Shown piece by piece: positions 6,572 to 40,000 of a DNA stretch of 40,137 nt. How positions within the stretch are numbered: position 1 is the stretch's first letter; each line of letters begins with the position of its first letter. Under the pieces are notes generated by a model. It searched no databases. It saw only the letters and a list, made by a program, of their open reading frames with translations, and was not told where the DNA came from. This stretch comes from Chitinophagales bacterium (lineage in GTDB: Bacteria > Bacteroidota > Bacteroidia > Chitinophagales > UBA2359): contig JAHDEE010000029.1 in NCBI GenBank assembly GCA_020629005.1, positions 1-40,137 on the forward strand. Reading direction: 5' to 3'. The translations under genes and the position numbers were made by a program.

Positions 6572-9500
6572 ATGGGAAAATTTTTACAATTGGTATTCAT
6601 CATGCTGTTCGCATCTCTTGCGACTTTCGCCCAGGTGGGTGAAATCCAGGGTCGGGTGACGGACTCCATGACTGGTGAGGGGATTCCCTTTGCCAATGTA
6701 ACTACCACGGTGGGAGGAGCTCTTACTGGAGCGCAAACAGACTTCGATGGCTTCTACTCCATCAAGCCTGTGACACCGGGTCAGTACGATGTTGAGATAT
6801 CGTACGTGGGGTACCAAAAAAATATAACACAGGGTGTGCTTGCATCAGCCGACCAGATTACTTTCCTCAATATCGAACTGGTAGAGGAATCTCAAGTTCT
6901 TGAAGAGGTAGTGGTGAAAGCATACAAAGTTCCGTTGTTGAAGGCGGATGAGACCTCTACAGGTTCCACGGTAACCAAGGAGGACATCGAAAACCTCCCA
7001 ACACGGAATGTGCAATCTATCGCATCGACTAGTTCTGGTGTTTATCAGGCAGATGAAGGTGATGATGTGAACGTGAAGGGGTCGCGGGACGATGCCACTG
7101 TTTATTTCATCGACGGAATCAAGGTTCGTGGTCTTAAAGCACTACCTGCCTCTGCAATCGAGCAGATGAACGTGGTGACCGGTGGGGTTCCAGCTAGGTA
7201 CGGTGATGCTACCGGAGGAATTATTAATATCACGACCAGAGGGCCGCAGAATCAGTTTACTGGTGGTCTTGAGTTGATTAGCTCGGTATTTGAGCCGTAC
7301 GGTTACTTGTTGGCTGGAGCAAACCTTTCTGGTCCACTTGTAAGAATCAAGAAAGGAACCCCTGAGGAGCGTCCTTTACTCGGTTTCTTTGCTTCATTGG
7401 AGTACCAAAGAGAGAAAGATGATGACCCATCTGCAATTGGAACCTGGACTTTGACAGACGAAGCTCTTGAGTCAATTCGCACTGAGCCTTTACGCCGTGC
7501 AGGAAATTCAGCAGGTTTCCTAAGAAATGCAGAGTTTCTAACTAAAGATGATATGCAGTTGGTGGATGTGAAGCCGGACATAGAATCAGAAACGATCAGA
7601 TCTACCTTGAAGTTGGATTTTCAGCCGGCTACAAACATCACTGTTCAGGTAGGGGGATCGGCAGTATTTGATGATCGTCAGAACTGGGACGGTAATGGTG
7701 CTGCCTGGGATGATCGTCGAAGCATGCTTTCTTCTACTAACAATACGCACAGAGGTCGACAAAACGTAAGAGGTTTCGTTCGTTTTGTACAGCGATTCAA
7801 TAGTCGAGTCCCTTCAGAAGGAGAGGAGGAGACGGCATCATGGTTGTCAAATGCATTTTATACCGTACAGTTGGATTATACCAACTACCAGAGGCAGCAG
7901 GAAGACCCTTTCCATGAAGATAGAATTTTCGACTATGGGTATGTTGGTAAATTTATCACGGAGCGGGGACCAAACTATGGAAATGTATCTCTGAAGCCGG
8001 ACTATAACCTGGAGGGTATTGCTTATCTGGGTGACTCGGATCAAAGAGTAAGATATGAGCCGGGAGATGTGAACCCATATCTGGTCAATCATAATAATCA
8101 ATATTTCGAGCTTGCTGGTGATGACTTAAGTCTGCAGTCAAATGTGTTCCAGATTCAGGCAAATCAGGGTTTGTTGAATGGACAGCAGCCTGCGCACGTA
8201 TATAGTATGTACTATTCACCTGGATTCCGCTACGATTTGCTGTTTAAAGAGTACCAGGATCAGTACCGCGTATCCTTTAACAGTTCTGTGGATATTAAAA
8301 AGCCGGGTTCTACTGATCGAAACAAGCACGCGCTTGAGTTTGGATTTGAGTATGAGCAGCGTGTAGACCGTGAGTACCGAGTGGAGCCAGTGGAGATTTG
8401 GAATCTGATGCGACAAACTGTTAATGACCATATTGTTTTGGATGAAGACAATCCGAGACTGTTGATTGATGGGAATCTTTACACAATTCCTGAGTATGAA
8501 TCTAGTGGTCTCACCTTCGGTGTTAATGATACTATCATGTACGAATATGAATCCGTTGGTGATCAGCGGTTCTTCGATAAGAATTTGAGAGACAAGCTTG
8601 GCTTGGGCATGACTGATTGGATTGATGTAGAAGCGCTTGATCGTTCCTTGTTTAGCCTGGACATGTTCAGTGTTGATGAGTTGTTCCGGGATGGAAACAA
8701 TGAATTGACCCGTTATTTTGGTTATGATTACCTTGGAAACAGAATCACAGACGAGCCTGCTTTCGCAGACTTCTGGACTGAGAAAGATGAGTTCGGCAAC
8801 TTCACACGTCCGATTGGATCTTTCCGTCCAATATACGTGGCTGGATACATCCAGGATAAGTTTGCGTTCAAGGATTTGATCTTCAATGTTGGAGTTCGTG
8901 TTGACCGATTTGATGCAAACCAAAAGGTATTGAGAGATCCATACTCACTTTATGCAGTAAGAACTGTAGAGGAAGTAGATGGCTCTAAGAATCCTGCTTT
9001 AGGCCAGCATCCGAGTACTGTTGCAAATGATGCGGTGGTATATGTTGATGATGAAGTGAATGGAAATGTGATCAAGGGTTATCGTGACGGTGACCAGTGG
9101 TATAATGCTGAAGGAACTGCAATCGCTGATCCCACAATTATTGCTTCTTCTGGTGCGGTACTGCCATACTTGAAGAACCCTCTCACTGATAATCCTAAGA
9201 ATGACATTAAGAGTGAAAACTTTGACCCTGACACTGCTTTTGAGGATTACTCGCCACAGCTTTCAGTAATGCCAAGAATTGCATTCTCGTTCAACATTTC
9301 AGATGAGGCTATCTTCTTTGCTCATTACGATGTATTGACGCAGCGTCCAACTGACAGACTGGAAAGTACTCCTTTCTTCTACTACTTCTTCCAGGAACGA
9401 GCCATTGACCGAGTATTTAACAATCCAAATCTGAAGCCGGCAAGAACTGTTGACTACCAGGTTGGGTTCAAGCAAAAACTGACAAGAACATCGGCTTTGA

Positions 9501-10327
9501 CCATTTCTGCCTTTTATCGGGAGCTAAAAGACATGGTCCAGGTAACAAATATTGCCAATGCTTATCCTCGTTCCTACCTGACTTTTGGAAATGAAGATTT
9601 TGGAACAGTGAAGGGTTTTGAATTTGCCTATGACTTGAGAAGAACAGGAAATATCAAGCTTACAGCGAACTATACCTTGCAGTTTGCCGAGGGAACAGGA
9701 TCTGCTGATGATGGCGCATTTGATGCCATTCGATTCGGTCAGCCGAACCTGAAGAACATAGTACCATTTAACTATGACTCACGCCACTTGTTGAGCGTTG
9801 TGATGGACTACCGCTATGGTGAGGGAAATAAATACAATGGACCAAGAATCGGAAACCTTGATTTGCTTGCCAATGCAGGTCTAAACATCATTATGCGTGC
9901 AAGATCAGGGGAGCCATACTCTCGACAAGCAAATCCGGCTCCTGAAGCTGTATTTGGTTTGAACAGAGGCCCAACTCTTGAAGGTGCAATCAACGGATCA
10001 CGATTGCCTTGGAATCTAAAGTTTGATGCGAGAATAGATAAAGACTTTAAGCTTGCTTTTGGTAAGAACAAAGGAAAGTCAGCTAAGTATTTGAACGTGT
10101 ATCTGCAAGTATTGAATGTACTTGATACGGATAATATTATTAACGTGTATACCTATACTGGAAGCCCATCGGACGACGGATATGTATCTTCAGCTCTGGG
10201 GCAGGAAGAAGTGTCCGCTCAGGTTTCACCGGAATCCTACCTGGATTACTATAATGCGAAGATCGCCGATCCCGATAACTTTAGCTTGCCGAGAAGAATG
10301 CGACTAGGTGCCTTGCTTAACTTCTAA
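6572..10327 (+). CDS. TonB-dependent receptor with carboxypeptidase-regulatory-like domain
   Basis: This is a 1251-aa outer-membrane receptor. A signal peptide covers residues 1-20 (ending FASLATFAQ). It is followed by a carboxypeptidase-regulatory-like beta-sandwich at about 24-105 (IQGRVTDSMTGEGIPFANV, GYQKNIT). The plug domain is at about 120-225 (TKEDIENLPTRNVQ, YFIDGIKVRG, GGIINITTRG). A long beta-barrel fills the rest and ends in aromatic Phe (RLGALLNF), as expected for BAM recognition. The architecture is SusC/RagA-like, but no SusD partner follows. Instead a large secreted protein starts 19 bp downstream and a PorV-like barrel comes after it, suggesting a surface unit working together. 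The ligand cannot be told from the sequence. Confidence 0.92.
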   Translation: MGKFLQLVFIMLFASLATFAQVGEIQGRVTDSMTGEGIPFANVTTTVGGALTGAQTDFDGFYSIKPVTPGQYDVEISYVGYQKNITQGVLASADQITFLNIELVEESQVLEEVVVKAYKVPLLKADETSTGSTVTKEDIENLPTRNVQSIASTSSGVYQADEGDDVNVKGSRDDATVYFIDGIKVRGLKALPASAIEQMNVVTGGVPARYGDATGGIINITTRGPQNQFTGGLELISSVFEPYGYLLAGANLSGPLVRIKKGTPEERPLLGFFASLEYQREKDDDPSAIGTWTLTDEALESIRTEPLRRAGNSAGFLRNAEFLTKDDMQLVDVKPDIESETIRSTLKLDFQPATNITVQVGGSAVFDDRQNWDGNGAAWDDRRSMLSSTNNTHRGRQNVRGFVRFVQRFNSRVPSEGEEETASWLSNAFYTVQLDYTNYQRQQEDPFHEDRIFDYGYVGKFITERGPNYGNVSLKPDYNLEGIAYLGDSDQRVRYEPGDVNPYLVNHNNQYFELAGDDLSLQSNVFQIQANQGLLNGQQPAHVYSMYYSPGFRYDLLFKEYQDQYRVSFNSSVDIKKPGSTDRNKHALEFGFEYEQRVDREYRVEPVEIWNLMRQTVNDHIVLDEDNPRLLIDGNLYTIPEYESSGLTFGVNDTIMYEYESVGDQRFFDKNLRDKLGLGMTDWIDVEALDRSLFSLDMFSVDELFRDGNNELTRYFGYDYLGNRITDEPAFADFWTEKDEFGNFTRPIGSFRPIYVAGYIQDKFAFKDLIFNVGVRVDRFDANQKVLRDPYSLYAVRTVEEVDGSKNPALGQHPSTVANDAVVYVDDEVNGNVIKGYRDGDQWYNAEGTAIADPTIIASSGAVLPYLKNPLTDNPKNDIKSENFDPDTAFEDYSPQLSVMPRIAFSFNISDEAIFFAHYDVLTQRPTDRLESTPFFYYFFQERAIDRVFNNPNLKPARTVDYQVGFKQKLTRTSALTISAFYRELKDMVQVTNIANAYPRSYLTFGNEDFGTVKGFEFAYDLRRTGNIKLTANYTLQFAEGTGSADDGAFDAIRFGQPNLKNIVPFNYDSRHLLSVVMDYRYGEGNKYNGPRIGNLDLLANAGLNIIMRARSGEPYSRQANPAPEAVFGLNRGPTLEGAINGSRLPWNLKFDARIDKDFKLAFGKNKGKSAKYLNVYLQVLNVLDTDNIINVYTYTGSPSDDGYVSSALGQEEVSAQVSPESYLDYYNAKIADPDNFSLPRRMRLGALLNF

Positions 10328-10346
10328 TTCAAAAATTCTTTGATCT

Positions 10347-13300
10347 ATGTTTAATTTTTTAAGAAACTCTTTTTGTTTGCTGATAGTGCTTGCACTACTT
10401 GGCAGCACAGGGCAGGCACGTGAGATACAGGGTTTACCAGGTAAGACTAATTCTTCTGGTAAGACGGCTGCTGGTTGTCAGTCTGCATCGGCGTTTACCG
10501 AGCTAAACGTCAACAATATCCGAGCTGGTCTTATGACTGGTGGAGATCTATGGTGGGATTTATCTGATGCTAAATATGAAGTACCAAAGGTGGAGCCAGG
10601 ATCAGGGGAAGTATCCGTGAGCTCAATTTTTGCCGGTGCTCTTTGGATTGGAGGTATTGATCAATTGGGGCAGCTGAAGATTGCTGCGCAGACATATCGA
10701 CAAACTGGTAATGATTTTTGGGCAGGTCCATTGGATGATGATGGGCAGGTTGATGAAAGAACTTGTAATGAATTCGATCGATTTTGGGAGGTAAGTGGTA
10801 CAGATATTACCAACTTCCTGGCTGCCTGGGAAGAGGAGACAGCAGCAACGCTTTCTCCTGCTGCAGTTCCCCAAAGCCTGCAAGAATGGCCAGCTAGAAA
10901 CAATGTAAACGCAGCCATCGAGCTGCCGGACGATAAAGATCTTGCTCCATTTTATGATTACGATGAAAATGGAATTTATGACCCCACGAGAGGAGATTAC
11001 CCGGTGATTGACCCGGAAAACGAGGGCGTTTACGCGGATCAAATGATCTGGTGGGTGTTCAATGATAAAGGAGATATACACTCCGAGACCGGTGGTGAGG
11101 CTATCGGAGTGGAAGTTGGAGCTTTGGCATTTGCCTATGCTACCAACGATGAGGTAAACAACATGAGTTTCTACAAGTATGTAGTCGATAATCGATCAAC
11201 TGCTGCGCTAGACTCTGTTTATTTTGGACAATGGGTAGATCCGGATTTGGGAGAATATGATGATGACTACGTTGGTTGTAATGTGGAAAATTCTCTAGGG
11301 GTGGTTTATAATGGTCAGGCCAATGATGGACAATATGGTTCTGAGCCACCAATGCTAGGGGTAGATTTCTTCCAGGGTCCAAGAGATGAAAATGGAAATG
11401 AGCTGGGCATGTCTGCCTTTGTATACTATGATAATGACAGAACAGACTTTGGAAATCCGGATGCGGCATCACACTTTTACGGATACCTTGCAGGTCATTG
11501 GAAGAATGGTCGACCCTTGGTTAATGATGGTGTAGATGGTCGTGGAGACGGGGAGCCATTTCCTTATGTATTCCCTGGAGATCCTGCAGATCCTGAAGCG
11601 TGGTCTGAGTGTTCAGCAGGCAATACTGCTGCAGATAGAAGATTCTTGCAGGTATCTGGTCCATTCCGTTTGCTTCCTGGGGCTGTGAATGAAGTTATTG
11701 TGGGTGTGGTATGGGTTCAGGAAGGTGTTAACTATCCTTGTCCATCTTTCAAGCCGCTGCTAAAAGCTGATGCGAAGGCACAAGCATTGTTCGATAGTAA
11801 CTTCGCAATTCCTAATGGTCCGGATGCTCCGGATATGGTGATCAACGAATCGGATCGAAAGTTGATTTTGACACTCTCTAATAGTCCAGCTAGTAATAAC
11901 TTTAATGAAGAGTATATGGAGTCAGACGCGGTTCTTGCCGGGCAGGGAGAGCGAGATTCAACTTATAACTTCCAAGGATACATTTTGTATCAACTAAAGG
12001 ATTCGAAAGTGTCTTCGGCTGAGTACCGAGATGTTGACAAGGCTAGAATCTTGTCTGTTGTGGATGTAAAGGATGGCGTTAACAAGATTGTTAATTGGGA
12101 TCTTGATGCTGATGCTGGTTTCCTTAGTCCTCAATTGATGGTGTCTTCTCCTGACCAGGGTATCAGACACACTTTTGAGGTGACTACGGATCTGTTTGCA
12201 ACTGGCGATACAAAACTGAAAAACAATACTCGATACTACTATTCAGTAGTGGCTTATGGCTATAATGCATTTGCTGCCTACAATCCAGATGATCCATCAT
12301 TGGGTGGTCAACAGATACCTTATCTGGAAGGACGTCGAAACATTGGCGTATACGTGGGTATCCCACATCGCAATGCGGCTGAGAATGGTGGAACAACGCT
12401 GCAATCAGATTACGGGGATTCTCCAGATGTAAAACAAATACAAGGATATGGCAGTGGAGGCAACGAGCTACAGCTTACAGATGAAACAATTGCAGAAATA
12501 CTAGCCAATGGATCAAGTGACAATCTTGTGTACAAGGGAGGTTCTGCACCAATTGATGTAAAAGTTTACGATCCGTCGAAAATTCCAGCAGAGACCTTTA
12601 GAGTTGAAATCTCGAATTCGACGATAGCATCATTTGAATCTACTTCGCAAGAAGGTGGTAAAGTGGAATTGATGCCTGACGGAACTTTCAAGTACACTCC
12701 TCCTAGCGGCTTTGAGGGTATCGACCAATTCCTGTACTTCGTTTCTGACGAATTTGGTAATACAGATCCAGGTAATGTGGTTATTGAAGTTGGTGATATC
12801 ACTGGCATTGTAAAAGCCTGTGATGACACGGCGATCGCAGAGCCTTCGAATAATCCATCTGTAACTGTAGGAAGAGTCGAAATTTCTGTTACTACAAATG
12901 ATTATGGTGTAGACACTTTAGCAAGAATTGATACAGAGAGTCCTGGATCGACCAATGCTGCCTTTACTGAGATTTTCAGTGGTAACACAAAGATTCAGTA
13001 TAAGCCTAACGTAGCTGCCGTCGATGAGCTGGATCGCCTACACTATTTCTCAGATCCGAATGATAAGATTCGTGCGGCTTGCTGGATCAATGTAACGTTC
13101 AATGAAGTGGATGCAGTGGATGACGTGATTGCTGTAGAGAAAGACGGTTCAATAACCTTTGATCCAAAGGAAAACGATATTGGAATTAGCAATGCTTCGG
13201 CTCCTGATGGATGGGTAACCCCCTACTCCAGCTGGACAATTTACAGTGTGAGCAATCCTGATAGAGAATTGAATCATGTAGTCAGTCTCATTAAAGAGAA

Positions 13301-14735
13301 CGAAGAGGCAATTGGTGGTTGGTCCTATGATGGAGGCGATGAGCCTCTAGGGTTTACTGTGAAGTTGAGACAGCCATTTAGTCCAAGAATTGCAGATGGA
13401 TATATCTCAGATATCATCACTTTTGAAGAGGGCAAACCTCGTTGGATGGTTGGAATGGCTGATGGAGAGGCTACCAGTCACCTAAATTGGATTCGATCTG
13501 GTGATCTGGCTGGAACTGAGTTTAACGATTACCCGCACGACAGGAATGCTTACTATGAAAATATAGCTGGCGGAACGATCGCCCCATATTGCTTAACGGC
13601 ATTCAATCCTGGCCCTCCTTCTACAGCTGATGCTCCTCCAACGGTGGTTGCAGCTCCGGCTTGTCGTACTTGTGAGCCAGGTGGTGTTCCAAAGAATAAC
13701 TTAGATGAACTGGCTTGCGTGAGAATTGTTTTATCAGACAATCCAGAGGACTGGTCACAGTGTGTGGTGGTTGAAATGGCAAGAGATGCCGCAATTGCTG
13801 AAGGCCAGGCCAGACGAAATTCACTTCGTAATGCTGCCTCAGTAAATCTTGATGGAACACGCAGCTCCAGCGAAACGGGACGCTCCTGGTTCCCTGGTTA
13901 TGCGATCAATACGGAGACTGGAAAGCGACTCAATGTGATGTTTGGAGAGAATTCCTTCATCGGTAGTGATAATGGTAAGGACATGATCTGGAACCCAACT
14001 GATACTGATATTATCGAATTTGGTTTTGGTGTTTCACAGAACAGGTTCAAGTGGGCTGGTGAGCATTACTTATACGTGATGAACACGGAGTATGACAATG
14101 GTGCCCGCTACCACGAGATGCTTGGCCAAGATGATGATGATCTGATGACAGAAGTATATCGTGAGGCGATGTGGGTGATGGCTCCACAGTTGGAGCAAGG
14201 CTTCACCATGAAGTCCTGGGAAGAAGGTCTAGTACCTTCAGATATGACCATTGACATAAATGTTGCTTCTCCATATCGACAAAACCCGATTGGTGAGAAG
14301 CTGATTTACGAGTTTAGCTTCGACGAGCTTGCAGCTATTACAGGAACTTCTGCTGACATGGACGATCCGTTGGAGGCTGTTCAAGCGGTGCCGAATCCGT
14401 ACTACGCTTACTCTGATTATGAAAACAATCAGCTGGATAATCGAATCAAGATTACAAACTTGCCAGAAAGATGTACTGTGAGAATTTTGCAGCTGGACGG
14501 AACAATGATACGTCAGTTGAAAGTAGATAATAGTGCTGTAATTGGTGGAACCAGCTATGGTGGAAGAGTTGGAACTGAGATTGTAAATACCCTTGAGTGG
14601 GATTTGAAGAATGAGAGAAATGTGCCTATCGCAGGCGGTATGTACCTAATACAAATCGAGGCTCCAGATTTAGGAGTTTCCAAGACTATCAAGTGGTTTG
14701 CAGTTGTTAGACCTGTTGACCTAGATAGATTCTAG
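10347..14735 (+). CDS. Large secreted protein with cadherin-like domain and T9SS-type C-terminus
   Basis: This 1462-aa protein has a signal peptide at residues 1-24 (LLIVLALLGSTGQA). The N-terminal half has many Asp-rich, calcium-type loops such as YDYDENGIYDPTRGDYP and NGRPLVNDGVDGRGDGEP. A bacterial cadherin/Ig-like domain lies at about 745-815 (MPDGTFKYTPPSGFEG). The last ~120 residues (from QAVPNPYYAYSDYE, about 1345) form a FlgD-Ig/T9SS-like C-terminal domain with GGMYLIQIEAP. The protein ends in an extra tail, WFAVVRPVDLDRF, that typical type A sorting domains lack. It is tightly coupled to the receptor upstream (19 bp) and separated from the PorV-like gene by a terminator-like hairpin. 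I infer a surface-anchored partner of those two. No catalytic motif was recognised. Confidence 0.83.
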   Translation: MFNFLRNSFCLLIVLALLGSTGQAREIQGLPGKTNSSGKTAAGCQSASAFTELNVNNIRAGLMTGGDLWWDLSDAKYEVPKVEPGSGEVSVSSIFAGALWIGGIDQLGQLKIAAQTYRQTGNDFWAGPLDDDGQVDERTCNEFDRFWEVSGTDITNFLAAWEEETAATLSPAAVPQSLQEWPARNNVNAAIELPDDKDLAPFYDYDENGIYDPTRGDYPVIDPENEGVYADQMIWWVFNDKGDIHSETGGEAIGVEVGALAFAYATNDEVNNMSFYKYVVDNRSTAALDSVYFGQWVDPDLGEYDDDYVGCNVENSLGVVYNGQANDGQYGSEPPMLGVDFFQGPRDENGNELGMSAFVYYDNDRTDFGNPDAASHFYGYLAGHWKNGRPLVNDGVDGRGDGEPFPYVFPGDPADPEAWSECSAGNTAADRRFLQVSGPFRLLPGAVNEVIVGVVWVQEGVNYPCPSFKPLLKADAKAQALFDSNFAIPNGPDAPDMVINESDRKLILTLSNSPASNNFNEEYMESDAVLAGQGERDSTYNFQGYILYQLKDSKVSSAEYRDVDKARILSVVDVKDGVNKIVNWDLDADAGFLSPQLMVSSPDQGIRHTFEVTTDLFATGDTKLKNNTRYYYSVVAYGYNAFAAYNPDDPSLGGQQIPYLEGRRNIGVYVGIPHRNAAENGGTTLQSDYGDSPDVKQIQGYGSGGNELQLTDETIAEILANGSSDNLVYKGGSAPIDVKVYDPSKIPAETFRVEISNSTIASFESTSQEGGKVELMPDGTFKYTPPSGFEGIDQFLYFVSDEFGNTDPGNVVIEVGDITGIVKACDDTAIAEPSNNPSVTVGRVEISVTTNDYGVDTLARIDTESPGSTNAAFTEIFSGNTKIQYKPNVAAVDELDRLHYFSDPNDKIRAACWINVTFNEVDAVDDVIAVEKDGSITFDPKENDIGISNASAPDGWVTPYSSWTIYSVSNPDRELNHVVSLIKENEEAIGGWSYDGGDEPLGFTVKLRQPFSPRIADGYISDIITFEEGKPRWMVGMADGEATSHLNWIRSGDLAGTEFNDYPHDRNAYYENIAGGTIAPYCLTAFNPGPPSTADAPPTVVAAPACRTCEPGGVPKNNLDELACVRIVLSDNPEDWSQCVVVEMARDAAIAEGQARRNSLRNAASVNLDGTRSSSETGRSWFPGYAINTETGKRLNVMFGENSFIGSDNGKDMIWNPTDTDIIEFGFGVSQNRFKWAGEHYLYVMNTEYDNGARYHEMLGQDDDDLMTEVYREAMWVMAPQLEQGFTMKSWEEGLVPSDMTIDINVASPYRQNPIGEKLIYEFSFDELAAITGTSADMDDPLEAVQAVPNPYYAYSDYENNQLDNRIKITNLPERCTVRILQLDGTMIRQLKVDNSAVIGGTSYGGRVGTEIVNTLEWDLKNERNVPIAGGMYLIQIEAPDLGVSKTIKWFAVVRPVDLDRF

Positions 14736-14740
14736 ATGGT

Positions 14741-14778
14741 TGCGACTCCGGTAGCAGTACCGGAGTCGCAGCTTTTTC
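14741..14778 (+). terminator. Intrinsic terminator or attenuator after the secreted-protein gene
   Basis: A perfect 13-bp stem, TGCGACTCCGGTA (14741-14753) pairing with 14758-14770, surrounds a 4-nt loop and is followed by GCTTTTTCTC. It begins 5 bp after the stop codon. Because the PorV-like gene follows in the same direction only 29 bp later, it may lower expression of that gene rather than end the transcript completely. Confidence 0.75.
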
Positions 14779-14806
14779 TCTTTCTTCACTGCGTAAATTC
14801 AATCAT

Positions 14807-15871
14807 ATGAAAAATATATTTACTTTTGTTTTTGCTTGTGCGCTCCTGCTAGGCTTTGGCACTGGTCTTGAGGCCGGTAATAAAGACAGAGTAGGTCAGG
14901 CGGGAGCCTCAGAGCTGCTAATAAATCCCTGGGCTCGTAGTTCCGGGATGCATGGTGCCCACACTGCTGGCGTGAGAGGCATCGAGGCAATGCGCTTCAA
15001 TGTGGCAGGTCTTGCTTTTGTTAATAAGACAGATATACAATTTGCCCGTACCGAATGGTTGCGAGGCTCAGGCGTGAACGTGAGCGCCTTTGGTTTTGCT
15101 CAGAGAATGGGTGAGACCAGCGTACTGGGTGTGAATGTGATGGCCCTGGGCATGGGCGAAATTCCGATCACCACGGTTGATCAGCCTGATGCTGATGGTG
15201 GCGCGACTTATAAGCCGCAGTTTATACAATTAGGGATAGGATACGGAAGATCATTTTCGGAGAGCATCCACGGTGGTTTTGTATTGCGAGTGATCAACGA
15301 AGCAATTGCTGATGTGCGTGCTTCAGGGGTAGCAGTGGATGCAGGATTGCAGTATGTGACTGGGCCAAGAAAGCAGGTTAAGTTTGGAATCTCTCTACGA
15401 AACGTGGGTACACCTATGAGAATGAGTGGAGATGGTTTGACTGTTAAGCTGGCAGATGAACAGAACAATGTAAATGCTAATCAGAGAGCCGAGAAGTTTG
15501 AGCTTCCATCGCTGTTGAACATTGGTGCGTCCTATGACTTCTTGTTTGCTGATCATCACAGATTGACTGTTGCCGGTAATTTCACTTCGAACTCCTTTAG
15601 AAATGACTTTTTGGGTGCTGGTCTTGAGTACGGCTTCAATGAAAAGTTCATGCTTAGAGCTGGATATCGATATGAAGATGAAAATCTAGATGATGAGCTG
15701 TCCATCTATACCTATAACGGTCTTGCTTTTGGTGCGACGATAGATGTACCTATCAAGAAAGACGGTCCAAGATTTGGTATCGATTATAGCTATAGAACCA
15801 CTCGTTGGTATGAAGGTACACACACAATCGGTGTGCGAATTTCATTGGCCGGTGGAGGCGATGAAGAGTAG
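14807..15871 (+). CDS. PorV/PorQ family outer-membrane protein
   Basis: This is a 354-aa outer-membrane beta-barrel with an N-terminal signal peptide (residues 1-23, ending GTGLEAG). The mature N-terminus, RVGQAGASELLINPWARSSG, and the following segment with EAMRFNVAGLAF are typical of the PorV/PorQ family, FadL-like barrels. In this family PorV carries T9SS cargo from the translocon to the attachment complex, and PorQ belongs to the same secretion system. Repeated barrel strands run to a C-terminus ending RISLAGGGDEE. It lies behind a TonB receptor and a large T9SS-like protein, which suggests a dedicated shuttle or assembly partner for that cargo rather than the main PorV. That role is an inference. 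A hairpin terminator upstream of greA closes the group. Confidence 0.87.
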   Translation: MKNIFTFVFACALLLGFGTGLEAGNKDRVGQAGASELLINPWARSSGMHGAHTAGVRGIEAMRFNVAGLAFVNKTDIQFARTEWLRGSGVNVSAFGFAQRMGETSVLGVNVMALGMGEIPITTVDQPDADGGATYKPQFIQLGIGYGRSFSESIHGGFVLRVINEAIADVRASGVAVDAGLQYVTGPRKQVKFGISLRNVGTPMRMSGDGLTVKLADEQNNVNANQRAEKFELPSLLNIGASYDFLFADHHRLTVAGNFTSNSFRNDFLGAGLEYGFNEKFMLRAGYRYEDENLDDELSIYTYNGLAFGATIDVPIKKDGPRFGIDYSYRTTRWYEGTHTIGVRISLAGGGDEE

Positions 15872-15965
15872 AAGCGCAAATTCATTTTGATTTTCGTTAA
15901 ATATTACAGAACTTTGGATCGTTAGAGGTTGTTCATACAACTGATCCAAAAATGCTAAAAACAGG

Positions 15966-16001
15966 GAGAAACGCTACAGGCAGTAGCGTTTCTCTCTTTT
16001 T
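15966..16001 (+). terminator. Intrinsic terminator between the PorV-like gene and greA
   Basis: A perfect 12-bp stem GAGAAACGCTAC/GTAGCGTTTCTC (15966-15977 with 15983-15994) and a 5-nt loop AGGCA are followed by a T-rich run. It lies 95 bp after the PorV-like stop codon and 24 bp before greA, so it should separate the two transcripts. A weaker dyad (GTTGT/ACAAC, near 15930) precedes it. Confidence 0.75.
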
Positions 16002-16024: not shown

Positions 16025-16504
16025 ATGGCACAGAAGTTCATTTATGTTACCCAGGAAGGGTACGACAAAATGGTGGAAGAGCTGGCTTTCATGAAGTCAA
16101 AGGAGCGACCACGTATTTCCAATGCGATCGCAGAGGCCAGAGAAAAGGGAGATCTTTCGGAAAATGCCGAGTATGATGCTGCCAAGGAAGCACAGGGATT
16201 GTTGGAAATGAAGATTGCCAAGCTCGAAGGCGATCTTGGTAATGCCAGAGTGCTCGATGCTACGACCGTAGATACTTCGAGAGCACAGATATTGACCTCG
16301 GTAAAGGTGAAGAATCTAAAATTGAACAAAGAATTCGTTTACCAACTTGTATCGGAGAACGAAGCTGATTTGAAGTCTGGACGAATCTCTGTGAAATCGC
16401 CTATCGGTAAAGGTATTTTAGGAAAGACGATTGGCGATCGGGTAGTGATCAATGTTCCGGCCGGAAAGATTGAGATAGAGATCCTTGATATCTTTGTGTC
16501 CTAG
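16025..16504 (+). CDS. greA: Transcription elongation factor GreA
   Basis: GreA binds the RNA polymerase secondary channel and stimulates cleavage of backtracked transcripts. The 159-aa protein has the N-terminal antiparallel coiled coil (about 10-75). Its tip motif GDLSENAEYDAAKE carries the acidic residues that position magnesium. The C-terminal FKBP-like domain includes SPIGKGILGKTIGD and ends IEILDI. Length and domain order are standard. The start ATG lies just after a terminator hairpin, so greA probably has its own promoter or relies on read-through. Its stop codon TAG is part of the left arm of a long inverted repeat at 16500-16626, which may form the 3' end of its mRNA. Confidence 0.96.
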   Translation: MAQKFIYVTQEGYDKMVEELAFMKSKERPRISNAIAEAREKGDLSENAEYDAAKEAQGLLEMKIAKLEGDLGNARVLDATTVDTSRAQILTSVKVKNLKLNKEFVYQLVSENEADLKSGRISVKSPIGKGILGKTIGDRVVINVPAGKIEIEILDIFVS

Positions 16505-31206: not shown

Positions 31207-32169
31207 ATGAAAATTGCCATTCTCCATGCAAGCTATCAAGACTCAAACTCCCCTACAAAGCAGTTTGACATTTCCTACGATCCCACTCCTTATCTGGATG
31301 GACATGAAATCAGCCACCACCACATCCACTTTAGGAACATCAGCCAGCAACTAACAGAAATTGTAAAGCAGGATCACGACTTCTACTTCAATCTCTGTGA
31401 CGGAGCTGCCGATGAACAAAGAGCCGGTATTGAGGTGATCGAATTCCTGCAGCGCAATCGCAAAGCTTTTAGCGGAGCAAGGTCCGACTTTTACGAGCCG
31501 AATTGCAGGCAGATGAAGCAGATCTGCAAGGCCTGTAATTGTCTATATCCGGCATCACACTTCGCTGCTTCTCTCAAAGATCTGGAAGGACTTCAATTGC
31601 CTTATCCCCTGCTAGTCAAACATCCATCTTCCTACAACAGCATTGGCATGTACAAGCACAACAAAGTACAAGACTTGCCGGCGCTCGAACAAGTATGTCA
31701 GCAAATGATTGACCGCTACGGCGAAGCATTGATCGAGCGTTTTATTACGGGTCCGGAGTATACCGTTTTGCTTTCCGGACGGCGCAATGAGGAGCAGGAC
31801 ATCAAAGTCTATCCACCTATGGAAGTCCTTTTTCCAGAAGGGGAGGAGTTCAAGCACTTTGATCTCAAGTGGAAAGACTATGCCGACATGGGTGAGCAGA
31901 TCGTAAGCGACGCTTCTTTAGCAGATCGGCTGAGCGAACTAAGCAAGCAGTATTATCTTCACTCCGGTGCCAACGGCTACGCCCGACTCGACTGGCGAAT
32001 GGATCGCAACACCGAAGACTTGTACTTTTTGGAGATCAACCCCAACTGTAGCGTCTTCTACCCCAAAGGCTCATTTGGCAGTGCCGATATAATTCTGGAT
32101 CATTTGGAAAATGGACACCGGCATTTTGCTGAACATTTGATTGAGATTGGAATGAAGGAAATGCTTTAG
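31207..32169 (+). CDS. ATP-grasp protein, D-Ala-D-Ala ligase-like
   Basis: A 320-aa protein with an ATP-grasp fold. The N-terminal domain opens KIAILHASYQDSNSP. The central lysine strand is LPYPLLVKHPSSYNSIGM (near 138-155), ALIERFITGPEYTVLLSG binds nucleotide, and the magnesium-binding tail is FLEINPNCSVFYPKGSFG. This matches D-alanine-D-alanine ligase-like carboxylate-amine ligases, but overall it is divergent from Ddl and no cell-wall gene adjoins it. The real substrates may be other amino acids or a small peptide. It is followed 3 bp later by a possible GTG for the AlbA_2 gene frame, but that gene probably starts 147 bp downstream. A small inverted repeat lies just before its start. Confidence 0.83.
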   Translation: MKIAILHASYQDSNSPTKQFDISYDPTPYLDGHEISHHHIHFRNISQQLTEIVKQDHDFYFNLCDGAADEQRAGIEVIEFLQRNRKAFSGARSDFYEPNCRQMKQICKACNCLYPASHFAASLKDLEGLQLPYPLLVKHPSSYNSIGMYKHNKVQDLPALEQVCQQMIDRYGEALIERFITGPEYTVLLSGRRNEEQDIKVYPPMEVLFPEGEEFKHFDLKWKDYADMGEQIVSDASLADRLSELSKQYYLHSGANGYARLDWRMDRNTEDLYFLEINPNCSVFYPKGSFGSADIILDHLENGHRHFAEHLIEIGMKEML

Positions 32170-32228
32170 AGAGTGCCCTTTCTCTTCACTACTTACATCT
32201 TTAATTTCGATTCTTGCTATATTGGCAA

Positions 32229-32248
32229 CATTGAAACTAGTTTCAATG
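32229..32248. promoter_or_regulatory. 20-bp perfect palindrome upstream of the AlbA_2 gene
   Basis: CATTGAAACTAGTTTCAATG is identical to its own reverse complement across all 20 bases. It is 59 bp after the ATP-grasp stop codon and 68 bp before the ATG at 32317. The overlapping TATATTGG (32217-32224) is a near match to a -7 element, so the palindrome would sit at or just after the start of transcription, a good place for a dimeric repressor. This supports the ATG at 32317 and an independent promoter. Confidence 0.5.
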
Positions 32249-32316
32249 AAGAACACAGCAGCTCTAAATTGATAGCTGCCGGCTTACATGTTAGTTGTAC
32301 TTATCCCTTTATCGAG

Positions 32317-34251
32317 ATGAAGATAGACCTCAAAGAATTGGCCCTTCGGGAGAACGAACGAGTGGAGTGGAAGAAATCCGGAGATGACAAAGATGTTGCC
32401 AAGGGTATAGTCAAAACGCTCTCAGCTTTTGCAAATGATATTGCTAATGTAGGGGGAGGATACGTTGTATGTGGAGCTGAGGAAGGCGTAGATCAGTTTG
32501 GATTTCCTACAGTTAACTATTTAGGATTGGAACCTGAAAAAATTAAGAGAATTTCAAATACAGTAACATCTCTTTGCCTTAAGCATGTGCGCCCCTCCAT
32601 AAATCCAATGATTACTGAGCTGGCAAACCCAACTGACCCCAGTACAAAGGTTTTGATTTTTACCCAATACCGAACACCGGACGCGCATGCATACAGTGAT
32701 GGAGAAAAGACTGCTCATTATGTAAGAATTGGAAATTCTACCAGAGAGGCCAGTAATGGAGTGTTGAGGCAATTGCTCATAAAGAAACAAGAATTAGAAT
32801 ACTTTGATGAAAGAATTTGCCAGAAAGCGACGGAATCAGACTTGGATATTCCGCTGTTTCGAGATTATATGAAGGAGATGGGGCTATGGGATTCCAACAA
32901 AGGCATCGAAGCGTACTTCTCCGATAGAGAACAGATTGCGCAATTTATCCCACCGCTGTTCGAAACGGTAAAATTGGAAGGAATCCTGAAACCGAAGAAC
33001 TTTTCGGTCTTGATTTTTGGTAAGAAAGGTAGTATCAGTCGGCTTTTTCCACACGCCTTCATCAACATCTCTTTTTATAATGGAATGGACAGAAGCGAGC
33101 CAACTGCGGAGAGACATCGTCTTGTGGGAACGCTTATCGAACAAGCTCGCAAGGCCATTAGCATTCTGGAGTCAGAAGCTTATGAGTCTTTTGATAAGCT
33201 TCGCGATAAACCAAATCAAGTCAAGTATCCTCATAGGGCAATACAGGAAGCAGTAATCAATGCAATAGTTCATAGAGATTACCAAGTGCCAGAACCCATT
33301 AGAATTACTGTCTTCAGTGACAGGATTGAAATTGTTTCTCCCGGGCCATTGCATTGGGCAGTTGATCAGAGGAAATTTCTTGAAGGCAAAGTCGGGGCGA
33401 GATGGAGGAACAGGAGTTTTGCGTATCTCTTCAACAAGATTCAACTTGCTCAGGGAGAGGGTCAAGGAATCCCGACGATCTTAAGGACGATGAGAGAACA
33501 AGGGTCGCCAAATCCAATTTTTGAACTAGGGGTGGAAAGTGTAGTGTGTACTTTGCCTGCACATCCGAGACATCAGTCGAAAGAACAGCTGCAAAATATA
33601 GAAGAGCATATCATTTTTGGTGAACTTGAAAAGGCACAAGCTAGACTAGAAGCGATTCTGGAGAAAGATCCGTACAATTCACGAGCCCTGGACTTGCTGG
33701 TAGAAATTTCACGTCGAACAGGCGAACCGGAAATTTTACTTTCGTACTTAAAAACGAAACAGCTAAATCTTGAGTTGGTGGATCCAAATACCTTGGTGAA
33801 TATGGCAGCAATTCTTTTGAGCAATAGTGACAAGGGGGAAATGAAACAATTGTCTGAGCAAGCAATCAAAATAGCTATGGGTGGTAATTTGCGACAGGGA
33901 CAAATTTTGAAGACAGCGGCCAGTTTGCAACAATTAGAAATGCAACATGATGCTCAAAGATTTCTCGCGACTGCCGCTACGCGATTCCCAAATCTCACAA
34001 ACCTTGCAGAATTCCAGGAAATGCAGTCAGATCTAAAATTATATTTGGCAATGCTATGCATACAAAGTCTTCAGGATCCGACTAGCTCTGACCAGATCAA
34101 GGATGCTGCCAGGAGCAAACTTAAAGAGCTAACTAAGGAGGCTCGGCAACACCTCACTTTAGCAATGGCAAATGCTAAGGAATCTGATGCACTGAATGAT
34201 TATCAGCAAAAATTGTTGCAAATTGATCAATTAATAGAGCGTTGGGCATAA
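32317..34251 (+). CDS. AlbA_2 (Schlafen-type) ATP-binding protein with C-terminal helical repeats
   Basis: A 644-aa protein from the ATG at 32317; the open frame continues upstream to a GTG at 32173, but that would cover the palindrome. Residues ~10-130 are an AlbA_2/Schlafen domain (LALRENERVEWKKSGDDKDV, LSAFANDIANVGGGYVVCGA). Residues ~285-400 are a HATPase_c_4-type ATP-binding region (YPHRAIQEAVINAIVHRDYQ, VFSDRIEIVSPG, GEGQGIPTILRTM). The remainder (~430-640) is TPR-like helix pairs (AQARLEAILEKDPYNSRAL). Proteins of this type are proposed regulators or DNA-binding proteins and some are linked to defence. The C-terminal repeat fusion is uncommon. It lies between an operator-like palindrome and MITE copy D. 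Confidence 0.82.
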   Translation: MKIDLKELALRENERVEWKKSGDDKDVAKGIVKTLSAFANDIANVGGGYVVCGAEEGVDQFGFPTVNYLGLEPEKIKRISNTVTSLCLKHVRPSINPMITELANPTDPSTKVLIFTQYRTPDAHAYSDGEKTAHYVRIGNSTREASNGVLRQLLIKKQELEYFDERICQKATESDLDIPLFRDYMKEMGLWDSNKGIEAYFSDREQIAQFIPPLFETVKLEGILKPKNFSVLIFGKKGSISRLFPHAFINISFYNGMDRSEPTAERHRLVGTLIEQARKAISILESEAYESFDKLRDKPNQVKYPHRAIQEAVINAIVHRDYQVPEPIRITVFSDRIEIVSPGPLHWAVDQRKFLEGKVGARWRNRSFAYLFNKIQLAQGEGQGIPTILRTMREQGSPNPIFELGVESVVCTLPAHPRHQSKEQLQNIEEHIIFGELEKAQARLEAILEKDPYNSRALDLLVEISRRTGEPEILLSYLKTKQLNLELVDPNTLVNMAAILLSNSDKGEMKQLSEQAIKIAMGGNLRQGQILKTAASLQQLEMQHDAQRFLATAATRFPNLTNLAEFQEMQSDLKLYLAMLCIQSLQDPTSSDQIKDAARSKLKELTKEARQHLTLAMANAKESDALNDYQQKLLQIDQLIERWA

Positions 34252-34484: not shown

Positions 34485-36566
34485 TCACCTAACAATCGCT
34501 ACCGTTCCCGTCTGCACCTGCCCATCAGTAGCACCCGAGACCTGAAACACGTAGCAGCCCAGTGCCCAGTTGTCTGCAGGAATAATATGCTGTGATTGCT
34601 CGCCTGACAGAAGCTGGTCAAGCACCAATTGCCCAGCTGTATTGTAAATCACAAGATGTAAATCTGAAGGATCATCCTCATTGTGTGAAACAAATAATTG
34701 GGCAGACTCAGGATGTAACATGAGTGTAATCGGTTCCTCTGTATTAGGATCGCAGGATATTTGCAGAAGCTGCGTGCTGGTATCCGTATGCGTGTTAATT
34801 GCAACAGAGACAACACTGACTTCATACACTCCGTCAGTCTCAAATTCATGAGAGACCAGGGCCCCTTCGCCCGTAGTGCCGTCACCAAAATCCCAATTAG
34901 CTGTTTCCAAAGGGCAATCACTCCTAAAACGGAACTTTCTACAATTCACAGAATCCGGTATGATCGTAAAGTCGGCCACAAATGGGCATTGTGCGGTGAT
35001 TGTCCGGGTAATGGAGTCCTTTAGTCCCGATTCACTTGTTACGATTTGCGTGACATCATAGTATCCACACTTATTGTAGATGTGAGTATCTTCAGTTACC
35101 AAATGCCCTTCACCACAACGATACAGCACCTCATCAGCGTGCAAGCTGGTATCGATATATTCAACAATGCCACAGGAGGTGATTTCATTGCGATAGTCAA
35201 AGCCTGCCACCGGAGCACAGTCTACCAGGTATGATTTTGTAATGGAAGCCACATCACCACTTGGGCTTGTAGCTTCGAGCGTGACCTCGAATTCTCCAAA
35301 TTCCACTTCATCAATGATTGGATTCTCATCTGTCCTGACCGAATTGTTGAAGGTCCACAAATAAGTCTGTCCATTCTTAGTAAGGTTCCCAAACTCAACT
35401 CTTTTGCAAGAGGTTCTGTAAATAAAGTCTGGTACAGGAATGCACTCAACATTTACTCGGCTACTGTAGCTCTGAGGATATCCTTCCAAATCATAACCGG
35501 TCAAAGTGACAAAGTAGGTGCCGAGTTCATCATAAACATGTCTAGGATGAGTCCCAGTGCCAGTGTTTCCGTCTCCAAAATCCCATTCATAATAAGTCAA
35601 AAGCTCACTTTGATTATCAAATTGTACTGCATAGCAACATTGCTTAGGAACGAAGAAGGCTGACTCTTGCCCAGCCACATCCTGAGCCACACCCTCATAC
35701 TGCACTCTGGTTATCTGCTTGCCTTCCGAGTTGGGAACCGTGTTTATGATCAGCACCGGATATCTGTTTTCTGGACTATAAAATTTGTAGGCAACCGTCG
35801 TGAAAGTACTGTCCCTTACTTCTTCACCGCTGTTCTTTGACACCCTAAAATTATGCACAGTTCGATGGGTCACTCGTAGCACCTCTTTTTCTCCACTAGG
35901 TAAAACCAGAGTTCCGTGTGCATCGGCGCTTAGACTCACTTCCATTTTGTTGGAAACAAAATATTGTGTGATTGGAGATTCTGGGTAAAAGAAGAAGGCC
36001 AACATAGATTCCTTAACTATGGTTTGTCCATAATTGATCGCAGAGGCAGCAAGATATTCACTCAGGATCATGTATTTTAAATCCTGGTCATCGTGTGACT
36101 GGGCTCCAATTGCTGAGAAAATGTTATTTCCTTCCACGCAGCCAGAATTAATGTCGTATGATTGATGACCTTTTACGCTCTCTTCTCGGTTGTGGTCCAA
36201 CAAAAAACCAAACTCTTGTAATAAGGCAACCAGATGTAAGTCTAACAATTCTCTGAGTGGAGCTACTCTTCCAATATCATCAGAACTAATACTTGCGCTG
36301 TTGGCTATGATTGTTTCAGCTGACTCAAACTGGACAAGTTCTGTGCTTTCCGGCTCTAAATGGCTAAAGTCCCACACCTGTGCTTCCTCAGATGCACTTC
36401 CAGGGTCGACTTCCGTACTTAATGCGGTATGCATCAATTGCTTAGTACTTGAATTCGGAAGATTGCTTTCGGTAATCACAGGCTGTGCAGTCAATGAGCT
36501 GCCGCAGATAAAAAGTGCTGACAGGCACATTAATCGTTTCAATAACACAGGGGAGTTAAGCAGCAT
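34485..36566 (-). CDS. Secreted PKD-domain protein with T9SS-type C-terminus
   Basis: A 693-aa protein from the ATG at 36566; the open frame has a TTG 9 bp further up. The signal peptide spans residues 1-28 (MLLNSPVLLKRLMCLSALFI, then CGSSLTAQ). Residues 30-310 are unrecognised. A PKD domain follows at about 315-375 (YYEWDFGDGNTGTGTHPRHV), then Cys-containing PKD-like repeats, and another PKD at about 550-605 (NWDFGDGTTGEGALVSHEFE). The end (about 620-693, LVIYNTAGQLVLDQLLSGEQ ... GCYVFQVSGAT) looks like a T9SS type A sorting domain. Such proteins are usually exported and attached to the cell surface. It is divergent from the metalloprotease gene, with 533 bp between them. Confidence 0.85.
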   Translation of the reverse strand: MLLNSPVLLKRLMCLSALFICGSSLTAQPVITESNLPNSSTKQLMHTALSTEVDPGSASEEAQVWDFSHLEPESTELVQFESAETIIANSASISSDDIGRVAPLRELLDLHLVALLQEFGFLLDHNREESVKGHQSYDINSGCVEGNNIFSAIGAQSHDDQDLKYMILSEYLAASAINYGQTIVKESMLAFFFYPESPITQYFVSNKMEVSLSADAHGTLVLPSGEKEVLRVTHRTVHNFRVSKNSGEEVRDSTFTTVAYKFYSPENRYPVLIINTVPNSEGKQITRVQYEGVAQDVAGQESAFFVPKQCCYAVQFDNQSELLTYYEWDFGDGNTGTGTHPRHVYDELGTYFVTLTGYDLEGYPQSYSSRVNVECIPVPDFIYRTSCKRVEFGNLTKNGQTYLWTFNNSVRTDENPIIDEVEFGEFEVTLEATSPSGDVASITKSYLVDCAPVAGFDYRNEITSCGIVEYIDTSLHADEVLYRCGEGHLVTEDTHIYNKCGYYDVTQIVTSESGLKDSITRTITAQCPFVADFTIIPDSVNCRKFRFRSDCPLETANWDFGDGTTGEGALVSHEFETDGVYEVSVVSVAINTHTDTSTQLLQISCDPNTEEPITLMLHPESAQLFVSHNEDDPSDLHLVIYNTAGQLVLDQLLSGEQSQHIIPADNWALGCYVFQVSGATDGQVQTGTVAIVR

Positions 36567-37099
36567 ATTGCACAATTTTTTCTAGTGGTGAATGGCTAAA
36601 GTAGCGAAGGCGAGGGAAAGTAGAAGGTGTTTTGGTGATCATTACTTAAGCCATGTTCCACTAAGTACCAAGGTACATTAAATTTTGCATATTTCTTTTT
36701 GTTGGGTCGCAGTTTGAGGAATAGAGTTTACTAATAAGTGAATTTTTGATCTAAATATGGAGTGTGGGCCTTTTGTGAGTCAAATTTAATATTTCGGATT
36801 TTAGTAAAAATTATGTCAAGTATGTCATTGTCGTATAGTGTGTTATGTTTTTTACGGTGTTTCTCTGTATTTTCTGTTAACGATTTTATGAAATTTTGGC
36901 ATCTGAATATTTTTCATTTTGAGATTTTTAGGGCTAATTTTCCATGAAAGTTTGGTGCTTGATGTCTGCTTCAATCGTGGTGCTCCCTGCCAGATTGTGG
37001 AGTGCGTCCATTATGCCACGCCCACGCTTGATCATTGGTTGATTTTGAAGATAACTAAATTGTGCGGATATGAATACTATAATAGCCAAAGTGTTGGAT
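36567..37099. other. AT-rich intergenic region between two surface-protein genes
   Basis: About 530 bp with no convincing gene. It is AT-rich, mostly between 36660 and 36960, with short open frames of biased composition. It separates two divergent genes and so should hold both promoters. TACCTTGG on the minus strand (36668-36675) is one mismatch from TAnnTTTG for the PKD gene. Near 37057 AAATTGTG is a poor candidate for the protease gene. Confidence 0.5.
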
Positions 37100-40000
37100 A
37101 TGCGAGTGATACGGCGTACCTGCAAGGGAAGTCTGTCTCTCCTTTTAATGATCATACTGAGCAGCATGTGGCGCTTTTCATGCCTACAGGGTCAAGTCGA
37201 TACAATGGCATGTGGATATGAAAGGGAAATGTACTATGCACTCCAGAACCCTGAATTTGAGCAGATAACTGAAGATTTGCAGGCAACAATTCGTGAAGCT
37301 TTGCAAGGCGAGATGGAGGGGTTTGCAGAATGGAGAAATGGTTGTAGTACTTTTTGTCTCCCTACCGTAGTACACATCTTTCATGAAGAAGATACTCCTA
37401 TGGGTATGTACGAGAATATCTCGGACAAGCAAATCATTGAAGTTTTGGCCGAATTTAATGCGATTCTCCAGGATTCTCCGAGCGCAGGAATGGTTTATGA
37501 GACCACGTCAGGAGTAGGTTTTGATGCTGGAAACTTTGTTGGGATTGATCCGGACATTAGACTGCATTTGAAGGAAATTGTGCGGCATTCAGTCTCAGGA
37601 GATTTTGATAACTTGCTGTTTTCGGCGTCAACTGGTTCGGACAACCTCACATCTACAAATTCTGCCAGTTTAGTAGCTACTGGTTTGTACGCTCCGGATA
37701 ATCATCTAAATATAGTTGTAAACAGACATGCAATTATAAATTCAGAGCCCGAATTCAACCCATGCGGACAAAAACCTGGTTACCGCTCAAGAGCAAGTGG
37801 CCCTGGGGCAGTGGCTGCAGCCGATAGAATTCATACGATTCACGAGAATTTTACTACGCAGAGTATTGGACACGAGCTTGGTCATTGGCTAGGGTTAGAT
37901 CATACCTATGATAACTATTGCCCCAATAGCAACTGCCTGTTGGATGGTGACCGAATTTGCGACACTTCACCACATGGTCAGATAGGTTATTGTTCAGAAA
38001 ATTCTTGCAGTACTGATGGGGATGATACTACTAACGCAGGAAACCCTTTCGTAGGCTTCGATGTTTCAGATCCCTTGGAGAATTTCCTGTCCGGTGACTA
38101 CGATTGCGGAAGCAATGCTTTTACTGCTCAACAGGCAATAGCTATGAGTACTTTATTTATGCCGGGAGCTCCTAGATCTACCTTGCCAGCCTCAAACCTT
38201 TCTGGTGGGCCTTCCGCTTTGAGACCTACCAATCCGATTGGTTGCATTCTAAGCGATTGTGGTGCTGTCGAAATGCCGAGCTACACAACTAACTGGGATG
38301 ATATGTCTTTGGATTACATTCCTTACGGTTTATCCCACTGCAATCAAGATCAGCCGCTTGTGAGCGAACCCAGCTCTGTGATACTTCCTTCTGGAGAGGC
38401 TTTTCCAATTTTTCAAATGGTGGACTACCTATCTGTGAACAATTCATCGTATTCACTTGAAGAAGTTGCTGGTCCAGCTGGGAGGGCTATAACATTGTCT
38501 CATGGCGATTGTGTTCAATGGGCCTCGACTCTCTACAATGGTGAGCAACCTTTGAGTATGGAGGGTGGCATATTGTCTTTTTCGCGCACAACACAACTTG
38601 TCAGCGCAATTGCCACTAGTGATTATCATACTGATGGCGAATTAAGCTTTGAATTTGCTCACTGTAGAAATTGGGGAATGGAGTCTGCGGAAAGTGGTGA
38701 AGATGGTGAATTCTTTTATTATAATATTGTCGAACTCGAAGTCTTGATCTCCCACGATGGTGGCTCCACATATGAAAGTCTCAAATTTTGGAATTCTACT
38801 GGCAATGAGCTGAGAAATGGTGGTGCCAATGACCCAGTTTCGGTCTTGACAACTTGCAACTCTTCTGGTCCCGGCAACGAGGATTGGTTCCCAGGACAAT
38901 GGAGTCCTCCCGTGAGCATACCCATAGGATTGCCTACGGGCTTAGCTCACAAAACTTTGATCAAAATCGAAGTCACTTTCAATGGCGGTTGTCCTCAGAA
39001 TTTGTACATAAGAAATCTTCGTTTTGACGCCTCTAAGGACTGCCCTGATATTCCTGTTGTTCAGCATTGTTTTATAGCTGAGCAAGATACCTGGACGTTC
39101 GATAATGTGCAAGATGTGTTACAGGATACATGGACCCTCTGTTCAAATTACAACCTACAATGGGATGATCCTGACGCTAGTGTAAATGATTGCATTTCCT
39201 TTCAAAATGGAGTTAGCTATACAGCCACTCCTGTTTATCCCAATTGTCTGGACAACCCGGATTGTGCCTCTGACGAAATAATAGAATTTGGGTTTTATAA
39301 CTGCACAATAGTAGATCAGGTGGTTAATTTGGAAGCTGGGGCTTGCCAGTACATCGTCACTGACAGTAATCTAGATCCTTCTTTTCCCTCTGAAGAATTT
39401 TGCCCATCGATCACCTACATTAATAACATTAATAACACCAGTTCGCTTCTCGAAGCTGAGTTTGCCCTGGGAACGACTGAAGTTACATGGAGCTATATGG
39501 ATAGTGCTGACCAAGTACTGGCGGAGTGCAGTTTTAACGTTACGGTCAACTTGAGTGATACACTGTCCTGCGAGACCTATGGAATCTCAAATGAAATTAA
39601 CATTGTAGAAGGCGAATGCTCTTTCCAGGTCCTTGACAACAGTCTTGATCCCAATGTTATATGTTCTTCAGTTGCTGTCTCTAATAGTATTAATAGCACA
39701 GGGACTCTTGAGGGCGACAGTATTGCTGCCGATATACAAGAGATAGTTTGGACATTCTACGAAGAAGGTCAACAAGTGGGTACTTGTATATTTGCGCCTT
39801 CATGGGTCGAGCCAGAATGCGATGATGGGCTATGTACAACAGAAGATACGTATGACGAAGATAGCTGCAACTGTGTCTATACGCCAATAGATCTTCAAGA
39901 ATGTGATGATGGACTATGTACAACAGAAGATACGTATGACGAAGATAGCTGTAACTGTGTCCATACGTCAATAGAACCTCCAGAATGTGATGATTTGAAT

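Follow-up and report, generated by a model that had tools for sequence, protein, structure and literature searches.

The trio and its neighbourhood

Does a TonB-dependent receptor (TBDR) that is followed by a giant secreted protein and an outer-membrane barrel form a functional unit with them, and if so, what might such a unit do at the cell surface? The question is raised by three genes in a 40,137-nucleotide stretch of DNA from a Chitinophagales bacterium (contig JAHDEE010000029.1), hereafter the window. An earlier reading of the sequence alone (the sequence-only reading) had picked out this trio, and the ORFs were found exactly where it had placed them, all on the + strand, with intergenic gaps of 19 bp between the TBDR gene and the gene for the T9SS-type secreted protein (the cargo), as it had stated, and of 71 bp between the cargo and barrel genes (Table 1). 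The trio is bordered on its 5' side by rsmA/ksgA and a 2-hydroxyacid dehydrogenase (PGDH-like) gene and on its 3' side by greA. As the sequence-only reading had noted, no SusD gene adjoins the TBDR, the neighbouring genes being those for KsgA, the PGDH-like protein, the cargo, the barrel and GreA. On account of the strong hairpin that precedes the barrel gene, expression of the trio from a single transcript in this genome is uncertain, and its co-expression there is accordingly not certain. Similar hairpins are rare in relatives: two sets of related loci, of 41 and 70, contained 3 each.

Table 1. Coordinates of the trio, its sub-features and adjoining elements in the window
Feature	Position	Strand	Remarks
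TBDR ORF	6572-10327	+	1251 aa
Giant T9SS-type secreted protein (cargo) ORF	10347-14735	+	1462 aa
Cargo N-terminal domain (approx. residues 42-489)	10470-11813	+	predicted beta-supersandwich
Big_9 Ig-like match in cargo (residues 759-813)	12621-12785	+	absent from many relatives' matches
Type-A-like CTD of cargo (residues 1339-1451)	14361-14699	+	
Conserved C-terminal extension of CTD (residues 1452-1462)	14700-14732	+	AVVRPVDLDRF
Terminator-like hairpin between cargo and barrel genes	14738-14773	+	16 pairs plus T-run
PorV/PorQ-family outer-membrane barrel ORF	14807-15871	+	354 aa
Terminator-like hairpin 3' of barrel gene	15963-15997	+	
greA	16025-16504	+	conserved downstream neighbour, context rather than unit member

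Identity of the three proteins

The TBDR begins with a signal peptide and a CarboxypepD_reg domain (residues 25-115), which are followed by a Plug domain (residues 126-217; 44.6 bits against a cut-off of 23.9) and then by the barrel; it additionally carries the sequence VLEEVVVKAY, which we take to resemble a TonB box. Its orthologues are 34-91% identical, and its profile recovered solved TBDRs from the PDB, with the matches lying over the plug. The earlier description of the protein as a SusC-like receptor thus stands as regards a TonB-dependent receptor but not as regards SusC: against the SusC/RagA model (TIGR04056) it scores 76.6 bits where the cut-off is 368.25, and this match is confined to residues 24-226.

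The barrel, in keeping with its earlier assignment, clears the cut-off of the PorV/PorQ family (NF033709; 154.4 against 90 bits), and the barrels of all 104 modules compared match the PorV family at E<=1e-5. Several narrower identities were tried and rejected on the respective cut-offs: PorV (NF033710, 71.1 against 250 bits), PorQ (NF033711, 61.7 against 220), PorV2 (NF052325, 43.2 against 325), PorP/SprF (PF11751, 21.9 against 22.3; TIGR03519, 21.7 against 90.55) and BamG (NF053685, 19 against 250). The T9SS set of the host genome comprises SprA, PorU encoded beside PorV, PorQ, and PorV2 directly followed by PorU2, in addition to at least 150 ordinary type-A CTD matches. Since the true PorV, PorQ and PorV2 members are located elsewhere in the genome, the barrel of the window adds one more PorV-family class to this cell. 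The PorU2 that directly follows PorV2 (L082, G000:C247) is 1695 aa long. In its structure model (pLDDT 93.5) the barrel displays the PorV/FadL fold and is nearest to PorV: its best structural match is PorV in the SprA translocon (8gl6_F; Z 33.8, rmsd 3.9, 299 aligned), with FadL at Z 29.1.

The cargo has a predicted signal peptide, and inspection by eye revealed no lipobox. No curated family covers its whole length, the matches being restricted to the Ig-like stretch and a PorZ-like C-terminus; among these there is no sortase, and a search of PDB sequences with its profile gave no match. Structural analysis was based on a model of the orthologue L063, from residue 64 (pLDDT 88.3). The N-terminal domain of this model resembles the beta-supersandwich N-domains of GH15, GH65, GH94 and GH116 enzymes, as in the match to 9ju0 (VIA; Z 16.3, rmsd 3.3, 235 aligned). 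With regard to the catalytic (alpha/alpha)6 barrel of such enzymes, the matches mainly span residues 1-494 of the L063 model, which shows no long helical run beyond them; a predicted fold of this type by itself says nothing on function. Pfam and NCBIfam scans of the paralogous module cargos returned no function-telling domain. Stand-alone paralogues of the N-domain are encoded elsewhere in the genome, where they are coupled to ordinary CTDs without the tail described below.

At the other end of the cargo, residues 1332-1454 match the PorZ model (E 1.7e-7), and a profile-profile comparison (hhalign) against 17 ordinary type-A CTDs from the host genome gives a probability of 96.3% and an E-value of 1.8e-9. 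By these profile comparisons the cargo CTD is homologous to type-A CTDs. The type A models themselves (TIGR04183/PF18962) do not match the 1462-aa protein at their cut-offs; the homologue L178 reaches 19.7 bits where the type A model demands 23. Identity with PorZ itself was rejected, the PorZ family model (NF052228) yielding 30.1 bits, over the C-terminus only, against a cut-off of 260. PorZ is also the top PDB match of the L063 model in Foldseek, over 125 columns, which are assigned to the CTD on the strength of the PorZ family match in that region; as modelled, the cargo CTD is closest in fold to that of PorZ.

The CTD is followed by about 10 residues before which the ordinary type-A CTDs of the genome end, confirming the non-standard tail that had been noticed after the sorting-like domain. 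Most orthologues carry the tail as a ..RPxDLDxF motif and the rest have other letters in its place, and in the L063 monomer model it is of low confidence. In most paralogous modules the cargo terminates with its CTD; the motif-based measure of the tail is crude (its motif was found in 19 of 37 paralogues). The tail is thus not a general requirement for pairing with the barrel, and its interpretation as a general pairing signal was rejected.

Conservation within the class and relation to T9SS

A cargo match at E<=1e-3, in some cases weak, was recovered in 56 of 60 relatives within the host's class. The survey of gene order that had been proposed along with the sequence-only reading, and in which a loss of the order would have refuted that reading, found the order kept: among 44 regions taken around the best cargo matches of the relatives, 41 show the order TBDR-cargo-barrel and the other three leave the contig after the cargo. 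The full trio is likewise present in 69 of 80 named loci, a set that overlaps the relatives (e.g., L086 and L036), and the order recurs in other classes (see below). One carrier that is available in culture is Membranihabitans marinus, whose locus L117 contains the trio. The remaining named loci comprise three with the TBDR that end before the barrel, one with the barrel that starts after the TBDR, and seven in which the cargo lacks a TBDR before it and a barrel after it; in two of the latter (L126 and L132) a barrel gene immediately precedes the cargo. GreA lies within three ORFs after the barrel in 58 of the 62 named loci with room for it.

Some loci depart from the standard layout. L126, L132 and L146 show a cargo-barrel-cargo arrangement, with a second cargo gene 3' of the barrel. 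In the assembly JANWJV01, one contig carries a trio (L096) and another a lone cargo with the same C-terminal tail (L103), which is perhaps served by the barrel of L096.

Across the phylum, the cargo profile finds matches in 109 of 296 genomes, some of which cover no more than the CTD or the middle region and so are not full orthologues. All 109 genomes also have SprA, which counts in favour of export of the cargo by T9SS. The reverse does not apply: 119 of 228 SprA-bearing genomes, including many of the host's class, are without a cargo match at 1e-20. This rules out the trio as an essential T9SS part, and, judging from these genome surveys, it is dispensable for that system.

Paralogous modules and co-divergence

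Following up profile hits from other classes gave 32 regions, a small number of which belong to the host's class; most of the 32 contain the same trio. In a set of 16 genomes, those outside the class have 8 to 23 PorV-family matches each, as opposed to 4 to 6 in the class. A sample of 80 PorV-family genes, drawn from 110 such matches in eight genomes, was classified by what lies upstream. The most frequent context (37/80) is a TBDR and then a T9SS CTD protein, directly followed by the PorV-family gene; in a further six the barrel directly follows the TBDR with the CTD gene further upstream, in three the TBDR is slightly further upstream, and three have a CTD protein only (two of them at a contig edge). 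Eight, one per genome, follow a CTD protein of the size of PorU, whose identity as PorU rests on size and CTD. Other contexts account for 22 genes and one received no call. The repetition of the trio within genomes marks it as a module that was copied as a unit. As a control, 30 ordinary type-A loci of the host genome were inspected, with about 1.5 kb of flank, and none had a barrel or TBDR match. A predicted inverse relation between the number of PorV-family proteins and that of SusD proteins is weak and lacks significance (rho -0.34, p 0.20, 16 genomes).

A second conserved cassette was also encountered outside the class (L276, L285, L303, L309, L323 and L339), consisting of a CTD protein, usually a second CTD protein, a protein of about 460-570 aa, a TBDR and a PorV-family barrel.

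The sequence-only reading had further proposed that the histories of the three genes should agree, and this was addressed by comparing distances rather than trees. Between species, once the distance of GreA and PGDH is removed, the pairs within the trio retain partial correlations of 0.74-0.80 (49 loci, after exclusion of six named loci that were considered duplicates of a relative's record), as against 0.27-0.65 when a trio member is paired with a neighbouring gene. Within genomes, the correlations are 0.89 for TBDR-cargo, 0.85 for TBDR-barrel, 0.82 for cargo-barrel, 0.77 for TBDR-CTD and 0.69 for CTD-barrel (36 modules, giving 134 pairs). Shuffling within genomes yields a mean r of about 0.01 with a standard deviation of about 0.15, and in 2000 rounds it never reaches the observed value of any comparison. 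Species descent cannot account for co-divergence within a genome. The distances hence agree at both levels, and comparative evidence of this kind strongly supports a functional coupling of the three genes.

Comparison with known systems

SusCD pairs are present in multiple paralogous copies per genome. The trio resembles SusC-SusD in that a TBDR is encoded next to an extracellular partner and in its many paralogous copies in some classes; it differs in that the TBDR lies under the SusC cut-off, SusD is lacking, and the partner bears a T9SS CTD and has a barrel of its own.

The cargo and barrel in turn recall PorZ-PorQ and PorU-PorV, where, according to a review (PMC10202324), PorU keeps its CTD on PorV and PorZ on PorQ, i.e., a PorV-family barrel is combined with a surface protein that retains its type-A-like CTD. 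The same review proposes that PorV-like barrels shield the CTDs of their cognate partners from cleavage (PMC10202324). Additionally, PorU and PorV are encoded by adjacent genes in the host genome, as are the cargo and its barrel. In contrast to both pairs, the trio has a cargo that is neither PorZ nor PorU, extra residues at its C-terminus, a TBDR, and, outside the class, several modules per genome. In PorV2-PorU2 (NF052325/NF052324), also encoded in the host genome, a PorV-family barrel again adjoins a CTD protein; however, the window barrel is under the PorV2 cut-off and the cargo is without the sortase match. Finally, type B systems are comparable in having a cargo-specific barrel encoded next door and a link to an OmpA-type wall anchor (PorE: PMC10202324, PMC12618676), but the trio has a type-A-like CTD and a PorV-family barrel that falls under the PorP/SprF cut-offs. 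PorV is reported to receive every type A CTD, and type B cargo to have PorP/SprF shuttles of their own (PMC12618676).

A candidate surface complex and its alternatives

A reading with about an even chance of being right is that the trio forms a single outer-membrane surface complex, in which the cargo, uncut, is held by its own barrel over the TBDR for a SusD-like capture function. We infer in this proposal the physical complex, the uncut CTD, the role of the tail, the capture role and the ligand. Sec would carry the cargo across the inner membrane and T9SS (SprA) across the outer one, whereupon its CTD would be taken over by its own PorV-family barrel and not by the general PorV alone. It would then stay attached uncut, as the CTD of PorZ does on PorQ and that of PorU on PorV, with the extra C-terminal residues possibly marking it for its barrel or shielding it from PorU. 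In this position, the cargo could sit over the TBDR and capture for it a large, probably glycan-like ligand, so that a T9SS-exported protein would play the SusD-like role in place of a lipoprotein. That the TBDR is constant, that the copies are many and that the cargo has a fold like that of sugar enzymes together suggest ligand capture for import; this is the weakest step of the proposal. For a TBDR that would power or recycle the complex, as put forward in the sequence-only reading, this analysis gave no support.

Alternatively, the barrel might be a specialised shuttle that extracts the cargo from SprA and passes it on, comparable to PorP/SprF, with the TBDR doing a separate job. Such a role in delivery alone would be consistent with the co-divergence of barrel and CTD and with the genetically linked, cargo-specific PorP/SprF shuttles that have been described (PMC12618676), but it leaves unexplained why the TBDR is a constant third member that co-diverges equally strongly. 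Further, long barrels of 502-722 aa with a C-terminal OmpA-type peptidoglycan-binding sequence are found in the trios of 6 of 41 relatives (L069, L072, L075, L076, L077 and L078), the domain being confirmed by Pfam in L069 and L076 and judged from length or sequence only in L072 and L077-L078. These fusions suggest a static anchor, and the role of a stable acceptor or anchor suits the barrel no less well than that of a shuttle. Delivery alone thus appears unlikely. Of the earlier view of a dedicated delivery or assembly unit, the PorV paralogue coupled to one cargo is borne out by the gene order kept across the phylum and the agreeing distances, while the shuttle role is not favoured.

The same OmpA-type fusions, along with the large, beta-rich, secreted nature of the cargo and its Ig-like insert, would also suit an adhesin or coat protein tied to the cell wall by the barrel, with the TBDR as a sensor or an unrelated passenger. 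Against this explanation, which we consider somewhat less probable still, stand the strong co-divergence of the TBDR and its occurrence in almost all complete modules. Improbable, too, is a part in envelope biogenesis, in which the trio would assemble or quality-control other outer-membrane proteins or lipids in the manner of BamG/BamH: FadL-like barrels do work in the BAM of Bacteroidota (PMC12611786), and the trio lies beside the housekeeping genes rsmA and greA, but at E<=1e-5 the BamG model picks up 2 of the 104 barrels of the modules, the window barrel scores as low against it as given above, and the multi-copy expansion fits uptake better. Chance, or conservation of a neighbourhood without functional coupling, for which the flanking housekeeping genes conserved in the class might argue, is effectively ruled out by the recurrence of the trio at many separate, unrelated places in single genomes outside the class and by its co-divergence there as units.

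Returning to the uncut cargo held over the TBDR by its own barrel, a broader and more tentative possibility, to which we give somewhat less than even weight, is that the trio typifies a class of TonB-dependent importers new to the literature, of ancient standing in Bacteroidota and present in up to a dozen copies per genome in some classes, in which a T9SS-exported protein on its own PorV-family barrel replaces the SusD lipoprotein. The literature searched, with few subscription papers and no preprints, contains no description of the trio. If the proposal is true, PorV-family barrels would act as cargo-specific acceptors and the rule of one PorV for type A CTDs would be broken. The trio would also offer a function for many PorV-family barrels that lack an assignment, link T9SS export with TonB-dependent uptake, both hallmarks of this phylum, and give a handle on how some CTD proteins escape PorU cleavage and remain on the surface.

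Other genes of the window

Elsewhere in the window, positions 32173-34248 encode a protein with Schlafen/AlbA_2 and HATPase_c_4 domains, beside an ATP-grasp protein of the D-Ala-D-Ala ligase type (31207-32166). A 1022-aa open frame (37070-40135), with no Pfam match at 1e-5, runs past the window end, and beside it a PKD-domain protein is encoded on the - strand (34488-36575).
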